A stretch of DNA of 64,000 bases from Curvibacter sp. (lineage in GTDB: Bacteria > Pseudomonadota > Gammaproteobacteria > Burkholderiales > Burkholderiaceae_C): positions 1 to 64,000 of the forward strand of contig JADCGR010000006.1 of the NCBI GenBank assembly GCA_020248905.1, written 5' to 3'. The position numbers and the translations under genes are program-made. The first letter of the stretch is position 1; each line of letters opens with the position of its first letter. Positions 5,466-54,043 of the stretch are shown here, piece by piece. The notes beneath the pieces are model-generated. The model made no database searches. It saw only the letters and a list, made by a program, of their open reading frames with translations, and was not told the origin of the DNA.

Positions 5466-5538
5466 GTTGATACCTGGTCCGTCTGTCGATGCGCATGCGC
5501 GCTGCACGAGATGCCTTTTGCGGGGAACGCCGTGGAAC

Positions 5539-5607
5539 CGGCTTGGCCGGGCCACTGGCGTTGTCCCCCCGGGGGGAAGACGGCGCAAGCCGGCTCAGGG
5601 GGGAGCA
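5539..5607. repeat. GC-rich dispersed palindromic element (intergenic copy)
   Basis: The gap between the Bug-type and ModA-like genes carries CCCCCCGGGGGG near 5565-5576, then GAAGACGGCGCAAGCCGGC and another run of six G. This C6-G6-spacer-G6 layout resembles the element embedded in icmF (19157-19240). Such elements are abundant between genes in Comamonadaceae. Boundaries are approximate. Confidence 0.6.
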
Positions 5608-5609
5608 TC

Positions 5610-6575
5610 TCAATCCGCCTTGATATCCGCACTCTTGATGACCGCCGCCCATTTGGCGATGTCTTCGCGCATGTACTTGTCAAATTCCTGGGGCGTCATC
5701 ACCATGGGCGTGGCGCCCTGCCGGCCCCAGAGCTGGCGCACCTCGGGCTGGCCGACGATGCGGCTGATCTCCTGGTTGAGCCGATCGACCACGGCGCGCG
5801 GTGTGGCGGCCGGTGCCATGAGACCGAGCCAGATGGTGGCCTCGTAGCCCGGCAGACCGGATTCGTGCAGCGTGGGCACGTCGGGCAGCACGCTGGAGCG
5901 CTGGCGCCCGCTGGTGGCAATGGCGCGCACTTTACCCGCGCGGGCCTGCTCGGCCATGGTGGTCAGGGCGTCGAACATCATGTCCACCTGGCCGCCCACG
6001 ATGTCGGTGCGCGCGCCCGAGCTGCCGCGATAGGGGATGTGCACGAGGTAGATGCCGGCCATGCTCTTGAAGAGCTCGCCCGCCATGTGATACGGCGTGC
6101 CCGGGCCGCTGGAGGCATAGTTGTATTTTCCGGGCCGCTCCTTGGCAAGGCGCAGGATGTCCTGCAGGTTCTGCGCCGGCAGTGAGGGATGGGTGACGAG
6201 CAGCAGGTCGGAGTAGTTCACGGGGGCAACGGGCACGAAGTCGCGCATGAGCACAAAGGGCTTGGTGGGGATGAGCGTTTCGTTCACCGTGTGGGTGTTG
6301 GACATCATCAGCAGGGTGTAGCCGTCGGCCGGGGCCTTGGCTACAAGATCGGTGCCGATGATGGAGCCAGCGCCGGGACGGTTGTCGATGACAAAGGGCT
6401 GGCCCAGCGCGTCGCCCAGGCGCTGGCCGATGAAGCGCGCGTAGTTGTCGGCCGGCCCGCCCGCCGCAAAGGGCACGACGATGCGCACGGACTTGTTGGG
6501 ATAGTTCTGGGCCTGGGCAGCGGTAACTACCAGCAGGGCCGCAGCCAGCAGGCTGCGCAGGATCGAAACTCGCAT
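5610..6575 (-). CDS. Bug-family (tripartite tricarboxylate transporter) substrate-binding protein
   Basis: A 321-residue periplasmic protein. The start at 6575 is preferred over an upstream ATG because GGAGAG lies just before it. Residues 1-22 form a Sec signal peptide ending AAQAQ. The mature protein begins NYPNKSVRIVVPFAAGGPAD, the hallmark TctC/Bug opening, followed by GQPFVIDNRPGAG and ADGYTLLM. Bug proteins bind small carboxylates and either deliver them to TctAB permeases or signal to two-component systems. No tctAB genes are in this window, which is usual for the many orphan Bug paralogues of Burkholderiales. The ligand cannot be assigned. Confidence 0.9.
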   Translation of the reverse strand: MRVSILRSLLAAALLVVTAAQAQNYPNKSVRIVVPFAAGGPADNYARFIGQRLGDALGQPFVIDNRPGAGSIIGTDLVAKAPADGYTLLMMSNTHTVNETLIPTKPFVLMRDFVPVAPVNYSDLLLVTHPSLPAQNLQDILRLAKERPGKYNYASSGPGTPYHMAGELFKSMAGIYLVHIPYRGSSGARTDIVGGQVDMMFDALTTMAEQARAGKVRAIATSGRQRSSVLPDVPTLHESGLPGYEATIWLGLMAPAATPRAVVDRLNQEISRIVGQPEVRQLWGRQGATPMVMTPQEFDKYMREDIAKWAAVIKSADIKAD

Positions 6576-16672: not shown

Positions 16673-19600
16673 TTACATATTGCGACGGTACTGCCCACCA
16701 ACCTCGAACAGCGCCGACGTGATCTGACCCAGGGAGCAAACCCGTACGGCATCCATCAGCACGTCGAACACATTGCGGTTCTCGATCACCGCCTGCTGCA
16801 GGCGCTGCAGCATGGCGGGCGCCTGAGCGGCGTGGCGGGTGTGAAAGTCCTGCAGGCGCTGCAGCTGGCTCTGCTTTTCTTCCTCGGTCGAGCGGGCCAG
16901 CTCCAGCTTTTCGAGCACGGCGTCGCCATGCGGATTGCGGAAGGTGTTCACGCCGATGATGGGTAGTTCGCCCGTGTGCTTGAGCATCTCGTAGTGCATG
17001 CTTTCGTCCTGGATCTTGCCACGCTGGTAGCCGGTTTCCATGGCTCCCAGCACACCGCCGCGCTCGGCAATGCGCTCAAACTCGGCCAGCACAGCCTCCT
17101 CCACAAGCTCGGTCAGCTCCTCAATGATGAAGGCGCCCTGGTTGGGGTTCTCGTTCTTGGCCAGTCCCCATTCGCGATTGATGATGAGCTGAATGGCCAT
17201 GGCGCGGCGCACCGAGTCTTCGGTAGGCGTGGTGATGGCTTCGTCGAAGGCATTGGTGTGCAGCGAGTTGCAGTTGTCGTAGATGGCGATCAGGGCCTGC
17301 AGCGTGGTGCGGATGTCATTGAACTGGATCTCCTGCGCATGCAGGCTGCGGCCGCTGGTCTGGATGTGGTACTTGAGCTTCTGGCTGCGCTCGTTGGCAC
17401 CGTACTTCTCTTTCATGGCCACGGCCCAGATGCGGCGCGCCACACGGCCCATCACCGTGTACTCCGGGTCCATGCCGTTGCTGAAGAAAAAGCTCAGGTT
17501 GGGTGCGAAGTCGTCAATGTGCATACCACGCGCGAGGTAGGCCTCCACCAGTGTGAAGCCATTGGAAAGCGTGAAGGCCAGCTGGCTGATCGGGTTGGCG
17601 CCAGCCTCGGCAATGTGGTATCCCGAGATGGACACCGAGTAGAAATTGCGCACGCTGTGATGGACGAAGTACTCCGCGATGTCGCCCATGACCTTGAGCG
17701 AAAACTCGGTGGAGAAGATACAGGTGTTCTGACCCTGGTCTTCCTTGAGGATGTCGGCCTGCACGGTGCCGCGCACGTTCTCCAACACCCAGGCGCGGAT
17801 TTTTTCGATTTCCGTGTCGGTCGGATCACGGCCGTTGTCGGCCTTGAACTTTTCGATGTTCTGGTCGACGGCGGTGTTCATGAACATCGCCAGGATGGTG
17901 GGAGCAGGGCCGTTGATGGTCATGCTCACGGAGGTGGAGGGGCTGCAGAGGTCAAAGCCGCTGTAAAGCACCTTCATGTCGTCTAGCGTGGCGATGGACA
18001 CACCGGAGTTGCCGACCTTGCCGTAGATGTCGGGTCGAAGGTCGGGGTCGTTGCCGTAGAGCGTCACCGAGTCGAAGGCGGTCGAGAGCCGCTTGGCGGG
18101 CATGCCTTCGCTGAGCAGCTTGAAGCGCCGGTTGGTGCGGAAGGGATCGCCTTCGCCCGCGAACATGCGCGTGGGGTCCTCGTTCTCCCGCTTGAAGGCA
18201 AAGGTTCCCGCAGTGTAGGGATAGCTCCCGGGCACGTTGTCGAGCATGAGCCACTTGAGGATCTCGCCGTGGTCCTCGTAGGTCGGCAGCACGACCTTGC
18301 GGATTGTGGTGCCTGAGAGCGAGCGGGTGGTGAGGGCGGTGCGGATTTCCTTGTCGCGGATCTTCACAACGTACTCGTCGCCGGCATAGGCCTGCTGCAT
18401 GGCAGGCCACTGGGCCAGCAGCTTGCGGGCGTCGGCATCCATTTGCAGCTCGCGGCTCTGGGCGAGATCAATCACGGCCTCGGCCGCCTTGGCGCGGTCG
18501 GGCTTGTCCACGCGCAGCATCTGTGCACTTGCGTTTAGCTGCTGGATCTCCCGTGCCAGGCGTGCCTGGGCACGAGCCCGGCGCTTGTAGCCGCGCACGG
18601 TGTCCGAGATTTCGGCGAGGTAGCGCGTGCGCTGCGCCGGGACGATAGGCGTCTGGTTGCTGCTGTGGCGCACGCTGACGGCAGGCAGGCGCCCCGGCTG
18701 CAGAGGCAGGCCGAGGGCGGCCAGGCGCCCCTTGAGCCCCTGGTACAGAGCCGTGACGCCATCGTCATTGAAGCGCGCGGCCATAGTGCCGTAGACCGGC
18801 ATGGCATCGGGCGGCATGCTCCAGGCCTCGCGGTTGCGCTGGACCTGCTTGGCCACGTCGCGCAGCGCGTCAGCAGCGCCCTTGCGGTCAAACTTGTTGA
18901 TGGCCACGAACTCGGCAAAGTCCAGCATGTCAATCTTTTCCAGCTGGCTGGCGGCACCGAACTCGGGCGTCATCACATAAAGCGGAATGTCCACGTGCGG
19001 CACGATGGCGGCATCGCCCTGGCCGATGCCCGAGGTCTCGACGATGACCAGGTCAAAGCCCGCGCACTTGCAGGCCGCCAGGACGTCGGGCAGGGCCTGG
19101 GAAATCTCGCTGCCGGCATCGCGCGTGGCGAGCGAGCGCATGTAGACCCGGGAGCCGGTATCACCGCCGGGCCGCTCCAAGGCGAGACCCGCCCCCTCGG
19201 GGGGCAGCGAACCACGCGCAGCGGGGGGCGTGGGGGCACGTTGACTCCAGGGGTTGATCGCGTTCATGCGGATGCGATCACCCAGCAGCGCGCCGCCGCT
19301 CTTGCGCCGCGAGGGATCGATGCTGATCACGGCGATGCGCAGTGCATCCGCCTGGTCTAGGCGCAGGCGGCGAATGAGTTCGTCCGTCAGGCTGGACTTG
19401 CCCGCCCCGCCCGTGCCCGTGATTCCCAGCACAGGCGCGGGGCGCGCCGCCGCCTGCGCGCGCAAGGCCTGCAGACGATCGGCGCCAAGAGCGCTGTTCT
19501 CAATGGCGGTGATGAGCTGCGCCAGCGCGCGCCAAGCCAGTTCGCCATGGCCCTGGATTGCCGAGAGGTCTTGAGGGGCGAGCCCGGACAGGTCGCGGTC

Positions 19601-52831: not shown

Positions 52832-52915
52832 AGCCCCGCAGCCTGCCCCTGCATCGGACATCGGAGAAAATCGCGTTTTCTGAACTTGGAACGGGTCCGT
52901 CCGGCCCTCAAGCCC

Positions 52916-54043
52916 ATGAGCCACGCCTCTGACGCCGCGCGCGCCTACACCCTCAGCGACTTTGATTTCGACCTACCTGCGGAACTGATTGCCCAGCATC
53001 CCACGGCGGAGCGCAGCGCCTCGCGCCTTCTCGACGGTTGCGGCACCGCCCCCGTGGACCGCATCTTCCGCGAGCTGCCTGCGCTGCTGCAGCCGGGTGA
53101 TCTGCTGGTCTTCAATGACACCAAGGTGGTCAAGGCCCGCCTCTTTGGCCATAAACCAGCCGCCCCCCGAGGCGCTACGGCGCCGCCCCCCCAGGGCGGC
53201 GGGGGCGGCTTGGGGCGGCCCGGCGCTGCCCTCCCCCTGGGCGGCAAGCTCGAACTGCTGGTGGAGCGCGTCCTGCCGGGCCACGAGGTCATCGCGCACA
53301 TGAAGGTCAGCAAGAAGCCGGCTGTGGGCACGGTCCTGCTGATGACGGGTGCTTACACCGCAGAACTGCTGGGCCGCTGGCCGGACGAACACGGACAGCT
53401 CTTCCGGCTGCGCTTCAGCGCGGAGCCCCACCTCATGATGGAGCAGCACGGGCACGTGCCCCTGCCGCCCTATATCGAGCACGATGACAGTGCGGAGGAC
53501 GAATCCCGCTACCAGACCGTGTTTGCAGACAAGCCCGGCTCTGCCGCCGCACCCACAGCCGCTCTGCACTTCGACGAGGGCGTACTCGCAGCCCTGGAGG
53601 CGCGCGGCGTGCAGCGCGCCAACGTCACCCTGCACGTGGGTGCCGGCACCTTCTCACCCGTGAAAACCGAGAACATCGCCGAGCACCGCATGCACAGCGA
53701 GTGGTACGACGTGCCCGCCGCCACGCAAGAAGCGATCGCCGCCACCAAAGCGCGCGGCGGGCGCATCGTTGCCGTGGGGACCACCACCATTCGCACGCTG
53801 GAATCGTGGGCGAAGACGGGCCTGGGCACGGGCGACACCGAGATCTTCATCACCCCGGGCTTTCAGTTCCAGGTGGCGGATCTGCTGATCACCAACTTCC
53901 ATTTACCAAAGTCCACCCTCATGATGCTGGTCAGCGCCTTTGCGGGGTATGAACACATCATGGATCTGTACCGTCACGCGATTGCGCAGCGGTATCGGTT
54001 CTTCAGTTATGGGGATGCGATGGTGTTGGAAAGAGATTCATAG
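52916..54043 (+). CDS. queA: S-adenosylmethionine:tRNA ribosyltransferase-isomerase QueA
   Basis: A 375-residue enzyme that adds the epoxycyclopentane precursor of queuosine to t[43 protein letters not shown] and [12 protein letters not shown] form the N-terminus. [17 protein letters not shown] and [12 protein letters not shown] are C-terminal hallmarks. Family members are ~345-355 residues. The extra ~27 residues (82-108, a Gly/Pro-rich tract) come from a GC-rich element between FGHKP and GGKLELL. Upstream of tgt, the other key queuosine gene, but 2.2 kb and several genes apart. Confidence 0.94.
53159..53239. repeat. GC-rich element inserted in frame in queA
   Basis: About 81 bp encoding [20 protein letters not shown] and further residues. 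It contains CCGCCCCCCCAGGGCGGCGG, a C-run/G-run inverted repeat. QueA homologues, as remembered, run directly from HKP to a short turn and GGKLELL. The frame is kept and no stop is introduced. Confidence 0.7.

Follow-up and report, generated by a model that had tools for sequence, protein, structure and literature searches.

The window analyzed here, a 64,000-nucleotide stretch of a Curvibacter sp. genome (positions 1 to 64,000 of contig JADCGR010000006.1), carries an icmF gene whose product scores 1935.5 bits against the NCBIfam equivalog NF045497 (cut-off 1500) and whose alignment with the solved IcmF structure 4xc6 is interrupted at query residues 267–300 (Table 1). Compared with IcmF of the same-genus genome G021, the protein has 28 extra codons between NPW and RVYM; because the two halves abut exactly in G021, the net insert in icmF is 28 codons, or 84 bp. 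It lies in the G domain, just after switch I and a few residues C-terminal of the GDRIRM motif, with the reading frame kept. In MeaB the switch I residues are D105 and R108, and the G-domain contact in active IcmF is formed by switch I together with switch III (excerpts of PMC10481361).

A first-pass annotation, made from the DNA letters, had described an insert of about 28 residues in the IcmF G domain, and the comparison with close relatives supports it: the frame is kept and the tract is absent from them, 14 of 18 same-genus rows (this genome's own row included) having a short loop of 11 residues. Its placement at 19157–19240 needs a small correction; the element is present, but our repeat model R1 sets its ends two bases away, at 19155–19238. 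In an AlphaFold model, residues 269–297 have pLDDT below 50 and no secondary structure, and are flanked by a helix (259–265) and a strand (302–308); this model is poor overall (mean pLDDT 52.4, with 615 of 1125 residues below 50), weak evidence for the loop and unfit for a fold search.

Table 1. Features of the window, with positions counted from its first letter.
Feature	Position	Strand	Basis
icmF, fused isobutyryl-CoA mutase, 1125 aa	16673..20050	-	ORF list, NCBIfam, solved-structure alignment
Enlarged IcmF loop (residues 269–300) between NPW and RVYM, insertion hot spot	19151..19246	-	loop lengths in relatives; AlphaFold
Family A copy (84 bp) inside icmF	19155..19238	-	repeat model R1, 87.3 bits
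Hairpin 3 of the icmF copy, copy-specific stem round conserved loop TTGGAGCGGCCCGGC	19159..19187	-	90.9% of cells paired, compensatory changes in 6 of 7 pairs
Hairpin 2 of the icmF copy, GCCCCCCGAGGGGGC	19191..19205	-	97.7% paired; nearly invariant, so covariation is not informative
Hairpin 1 of the icmF copy (CCACGC..GCGTGG)	19212..19233	-	80.7% of cells paired, zero compensatory changes
IcmF residues DRIR in the GDRIRM motif, equivalent to MeaB switch I D105/R108	19268..19279	-	motif, by eye
Family D repeat, intergenic and distinct from family A	5525..5615		39 own-genome matches; not matched by R1
queA (tRNA ribosyltransferase-isomerase), start codon uncertain	52886..54043	+	solved-structure comparison, ORF
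Degenerate family A copy in frame in queA	53153..53235	+	R1, 24.5 bits, E 0.022 for the window

Copies of the repeat and their empty sites

The insert belongs to a repeat family, which we call family A. A blastn search of its own genome with the icmF insert returned 17 matches including itself, some of them partial (E ≤ 2e-6): the core of the icmF copy, 19164–19237, is matched in whole or in part at 16 further places, the best at E 6.7e-19. The R1 covariance model recovered at least 23 copies at E ≤ 0.0014 and 25 at E ≤ 0.06 (150 of 4204 candidates scored). Ten of the 23 are carried in frame by conserved proteins assigned by NCBIfam: IcmF, PheS, FtsY, Rep, UvrA, XdhA, FdhA (formate dehydrogenase alpha), CobQ, MCC-alpha (an MCC-type biotin carboxylase) and YbgC. 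The scores of Rep, YbgC, formate dehydrogenase, biotin carboxylase and UvrA fall below the curated cut-offs, a shortfall explained at least in part by a match broken at the insert or by a cut locus. Two copies lie at gene starts (Maf by NCBIfam, LpxB by eye), and the remaining 11 lie between genes or at gene ends, as judged from the ORF layout with neighbors named by eye. The genome search by blastn and R1 found further copies, both intergenic and intragenic, and the own-genome copies agree with its proposal that the element enters coding DNA with the frame kept as well as sitting between genes.

Two further loci deserve mention. The queA copy is the second protein-embedded family A copy within the window; at its site QueA has 32 residues, against 7 in the solved structure 1vky. 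Elsewhere in the genome, UvrA (L016, contig C23) contains two different in-frame repeats, family A and a downstream family B-like tract, PVQPELVEGPGGVSTGSG, recognized by eye.

The supposed kinship of the icmF insert with an intergenic repeat at 5539–5607 did not survive. R1 gave that repeat 10.1 bits (E 4.9), and none of ten examined copies is intragenic by ORF layout; we rejected it as a relative of the icmF copy and treat it as a real but distinct repeat, family D. All ten examined family D copies lie directly behind the end of an ORF, from a 3-bp overlap to 36 bp away, which is terminator- or REP-like.

Family A is widespread. At E ≤ 1e-6 it was detected in 216 of 299 genomes of the window's family, representing 117 of 141 genera; three candidates were scored per genome, so copy numbers are lower bounds. 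An order-level scan with another copy as query was positive in 20 of 250 genomes, 13 of them outside the family. A search for plasmid carriers gave no lead: 5 of 72,556 plasmid records held a copy at E ≤ 1e-8. The icmF copy shares 92–93% DNA identity over 73–79 bases with the best copies in other genera. Among the 29 best copies outside this genome (L172–L200), which are those most like the icmF copy and not a random sample, 17 lie inside scan-assigned conserved proteins, for example ValS, MoeA, Mpl, RecQ, GlpK, ThrC and MetX, several of these assignments scoring below the curated cut-off. The other 12 comprise L186 and L193, whose local sequence is the same as that of assigned ValS and ThrC, two copies at an aldolase gene start (one of these scanned), two in ORFs whose scan gave no family match, and six with no assignment. 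Several sites recur by eye: MCC-alpha (this genome, L192 and L197), CobQ (this genome and L188), a FadB-like protein (L172 and L181) and ThrC (L193 and L195). The Mpl gene at L178:590–2137 (reverse strand) holds two family A copies in tandem and in frame; the MetX gene at L200:925–2424 (reverse strand) holds two, one partial, with a third copy nearby.

Same-genus orthologues provide the empty sites. PheS was matched in 25 of 26 same-genus genomes; the insert is present only in this genome and G013, the 23 others being split at the site, and the PheS flanks are 97–99% identical to those of G021, which is without it. FtsY was matched in all 26, with the insert only in this genome and in G020 (where the contig starts within the query) and 24 matches split. 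For Rep, matched in 24 of 26, this genome alone has the insert among orthologue-level matches, and 21 other genomes align to one or both flanks only. XdhA was matched in 14 of 26: the insert is present in this genome, G013 and G022 and absent from G007, G014 and G024; G002–G004 have a different long loop, and the rest match too weakly to judge. By alignment coordinates the net insert is 84 bp in IcmF, PheS and FtsY and 93 bp in Rep, and the best alignments of FtsY, MCC-alpha and PheS with solved structures are likewise interrupted at the insert. Because this genome (99.87% complete) has a single PheS match and, besides FtsY, only a 44% paralogue, the insert-bearing genes are, on this gene content, very probably the working copies and functional. 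A 51% match through the Rep query in G002 (L298) is, by eye, a UvrD-like helicase paralogue; a separate family A copy sits in it, in frame, at the position corresponding to the Rep insert.

Hairpins and reading frames of family A

Family A is a repeat of about 84 bp with three hairpins. We aligned 59 copies (alignment A1), omitting 15 weak, duplicate or tandem copies from a total of 74. The alignment shows a conserved 5′ part, GCCCCCACGCT, followed by the nearly invariant central hairpin and then a 3′ hairpin in which the loop, TTGGGGCGGCCCGGC, is conserved and the stem is copy-specific yet still complementary. Because the right arm of hairpin 3 is part of the unit, the unit is about 84 bp long; tandem arrays in several genomes have an 84-bp period (such as contig 28 of G112 and contig 10 of G210, and also G199), and others a period of 83 or 87 bp.

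Pairing covaries among the copies. In A1, 89.8% of stem cells are paired, against 81.2% after shuffling; 93 cells are changed on both sides (27.3 shuffled), further pair types number 28 (21.9 shuffled) and covariation is 0.220 (0.076 shuffled), none of 500 shuffles reaching any of these four values. A fifth measure, the number of pairs with a both-side change, was not above the shuffles in A1 (6 against 5.6; 273 of 500 as high). Sliding the partner by 1–3 columns lowered paired cells to 41–59% and doubly changed cells to 10–42. The signal comes from hairpin 3, which has 51 distinct left arms among 68 distinct arm pairs and, at stem positions 2–8, pairing above all 2000 permutations; these permutation tests on arms and covariation take no account of kinship among copies. 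Hairpin 1 is the least certain of the three. The folding energy of the icmF copy is no better than that of equal-composition shuffles (z +1.54 and +0.67), and we rejected single-copy energy as structural evidence. What establishes the structure is the covariation between copies; the energy of the icmF copy does not. We likewise rejected an Rfam RNA family for the element, the best of four matches having E 0.46 and none reaching the gathering score.

Insertion within proteins is strongly biased in frame. Of 33 internal copies, spread over 29 host ORFs (27 scanned), 31 use two of the six possible frames, 16 in one forward frame and 15 in one reverse frame. The nominal P of 4e-13 assumes independent copies, an assumption that recurrent sites break. 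PheS and XdhA are the exceptions; by eye, each starts in a second frame and then switches frame within the element. All ten internal own-genome copies retain the host frame. The family A consensus contains no stop in any of six frames, which is likely anyway because the DNA is GC-rich. Net charge is 0 and −1 for the peptides of the two used frames, which are also the richest in Pro, Gly, Ala and Ser, and +2 to +8 for those of the remaining four.

Parallel insertion at the IcmF loop

IcmF was found at E ≤ 1e-20 in 197 of the 299 family genomes, 32 of which (this genome included) have one match running through the site. We read the loop in 125 of 127 IcmF rows, 118 of the rows being different; the two that the loop pattern missed, L081 and L091, are absent from the tree described below, and in L081 the IcmF match includes a copy of family A. 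The rows were picked by likeness to the window's IcmF and include some species twice, so their shares are not population frequencies. Among the 125 loops, 69 are short, 14 contain family A (10 forward, 4 reverse), 8 contain a second repeat, family B (CCGTTCG...CGAACGG, by eye an inverted repeat, CCGTTCGCCCTGAGCCTGTCGAAGG), 3 contain a third, family C (including L146, assigned by hand ahead of tree building), and 31 are long without a recognized repeat. Families B and C resemble family A in occupying the same IcmF loop, in frame, and in being palindromic by eye, but their sequences are unrelated, with their own cores and their own encoded peptides.

We built a tree of the 125 rows from the IcmF flanks without the loop. 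On it, the distribution of repeats requires 21 changes: 8 for family A forward, 3 for family A reverse, 7 for family B and 3 for family C, where three changes could equal one gain and two losses. The starred branches alone, 34 of 115 inner branches, require 6, 2, 6 and 2, respectively. At 100%, L163 with family B and L105 without it form a clean sister pair. As reconstructed from these flanks, the loop has been hit in parallel, by family A in both orientations and by the unrelated families B and C. The 31 long loops without a recognized repeat imply that the IcmF loop also lengthens by other routes. Some of these, in L047, L113, L153, L149 and L147, measure 34–40 residues; they are possibly decayed repeats or members of further families.

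Origin of the insert and its relation to known repeats

We think it very likely that the 84-bp tract is a non-autonomous mobile palindromic repeat that has multiplied across the chromosomes of this bacterial family and is tolerated in protein loops. Family A would insert both between and into genes, presumably moved by a trans-acting enzyme that recognizes its hairpins. Intragenic copies would survive only in a tolerant loop, in frame and in one of the two benign frames, whose product is a Pro/Gly/Ala/Ser linker of some 25 residues with almost no charge; the others would be purged by selection. The IcmF loop after switch I would be one such permissive site, where family A and two unrelated palindromic families have landed many times independently. 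The insert is probably translated and retained as a flexible, surface-exposed and disordered loop whose effect would be neutral or mildly tuning.

The recurrence at IcmF could instead reflect benefit, with the loop extension tuning the GTPase or the G-domain contacts and being kept by positive selection. The site does adjoin switch I, which with switch III takes part in the G-domain contact (excerpts of PMC10481361), and long loops occur there in many species. We nonetheless consider such domestication quite improbable, because the peptides encoded there by three unrelated repeats, of which one occurs in both orientations, are themselves unrelated, most same-genus relatives have no IcmF insert at all, and the element also sits in PheS, FtsY, ValS and other proteins without a common function. 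Removal of the element after transcription or translation, as with an intron or intein, would make any site harmless and would fit the hairpins and the essential genes that are hit; such removal would not need the frame retention of the ten own-genome copies or the use of two frames by 31 of 33, no Rfam family reached the gathering score, and we know of no self-removing element as short as 84 bp, all of which makes this explanation very hard to credit. We give even less credence to an ordinary variable linker grown by slippage, with repeat likeness arising by chance in GC-rich DNA. Loop length does vary, and slippage may hold for the 31 of 125 rows with long loops and no assigned repeat, but for the icmF copy it is refuted by the second own-genome copy, by the identity between genera and by the covariation. 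An assembly or binning artefact has an equally negligible chance: many of the named relatives are metagenome bins, yet the IcmF site is also filled in assemblies with as few contigs as one (G279, family B), two (G097, family A reverse) and seven (G318, family A forward), and orthologous inserts are common to separate genomes (PheS with G013, FtsY with G020, XdhA with G013 and G022).

A mobile, tolerated repeat of this sort has precedents. Rickettsia palindromic elements (RPEs) are described as 105–146 bp long with terminal inverted repeats, in intracellular bacteria (Ogata 2000, as excerpted in PMC2229807, whose table gives 12 bp for the repeats), or as about 150 bp in a 2024 review (excerpt of PMC10969869). 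The likeness to RPEs put forward in the first-pass annotation is apt for behavior: family A is palindromic, multicopy in one genome, also intergenic, and in frame in ten conserved own-genome proteins. It was drawn too narrowly, this behavior being confined neither to IcmF nor to Rickettsia (excerpts of PMC3733652). Compared by description only, family A differs from RPEs in being about 84 bp long and GC-rich, with three hairpins; its aligned ends are not mutual inverted copies (A1, by eye), and it thus lacks the terminal inverted repeats of a MITE. ERIC/RU and Correia/NEMIS elements, MITE-like and about 103–168 bp long, mostly with terminal inverted repeats, are unlike family A in those two respects and like it in supplying open frames that join genes in frame, some of these conserved, although many of the listed fusions involve small or hypothetical proteins (excerpts of PMC2229807 and PMC2759123).

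GTAG/CGTC REPs hit some of the same target classes. These are units of 20–40 bp with a GTAG or CGTC tag, found mainly in the gamma and alpha divisions; intragenic copies, published in frame for several free-living species, occur in uvrA, uvrD/Rep and tRNA synthetase genes, in most cases (over half) as dimers or groups that encode 20–30 residues, and recB of two Xanthomonas species has different REPs at about the same site (Di Nocera 2013, excerpts of PMC3733652). Family A shares short palindromes in these same gene classes, and it is chromosomal, multicopy, and both inter- and intragenic. Against membership stand unit length (about 84 bp with three hairpins, and net inserts of 84, 84, 84 and 93 bp, against 20–40 bp), the tag (no GTAG or CGTC seen by eye at the ends of the 59 aligned copies) and transposase linkage in this genome, whose sole PF01797 Y1 (RAYT-like) transposase gene (L141, a 244-aa frame) lies in a 3.3-kb locus without family A copies; that family A belongs to the RAYT-mobilized REP class is in our judgment unlikely.

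In-frame palindromic inserts are established as a kind, and family A works like them. Our literature search, mostly outside subscription journals, returned no description of family A or of in-frame palindromic inserts in Comamonadaceae, and in excerpts of a Rhodoferax genome paper the only palindromic repeats named are those of CRISPR (PMC2755013). As far as searched, four things are new: family A itself, a stem that is copy-specific yet complementary, the two-frame rule and the extent of three-family parallel insertion at one loop. They extend protein-invading palindromic repeats to a large, mostly non-rickettsial bacterial family, and they offer a natural insertion screen, since across many genomes essential proteins can be set side by side with and without the insert, each genome with family A recording which protein loops tolerate foreign DNA. 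The three-repeat IcmF loop and the use of two frames make the question of tolerated junk or useful addition testable in close filled and empty pairs. Annotation and structure prediction must take account of inserts of this type.

It is conceivable, if on balance not likely, that the element is adapted to life inside proteins, as a 28-codon in-frame passenger with one benign frame per orientation and in-frame tandem arrays, whose copy-specific 3′ stem may form afresh whenever a copy inserts, or may select targets through base pairing to adjacent host sequence. By eye, the outer stem arm resembles the empty-site DNA in FtsY and PheS and does not in Rep; XdhA is ambiguous. Target-site duplication has at best a faint signal: in 55 copies (13 tandem neighbors and copies without a recognizable start being excluded), the longest direct repeat at the insertion ends averages 3.8, against 3.46 when permuted, a weak excess reached in 6 of 500 permutations; a few cases stand out, such as AAGCATGA at L017.

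G013 has both the PheS and the XdhA inserts of this genome (L237 and L320; the G022 insert is L319), and relatives with PheS flanks more similar than those of G013 are without the PheS insert. The inserts of G013 may thus reflect either lateral transfer or losses that recurred.
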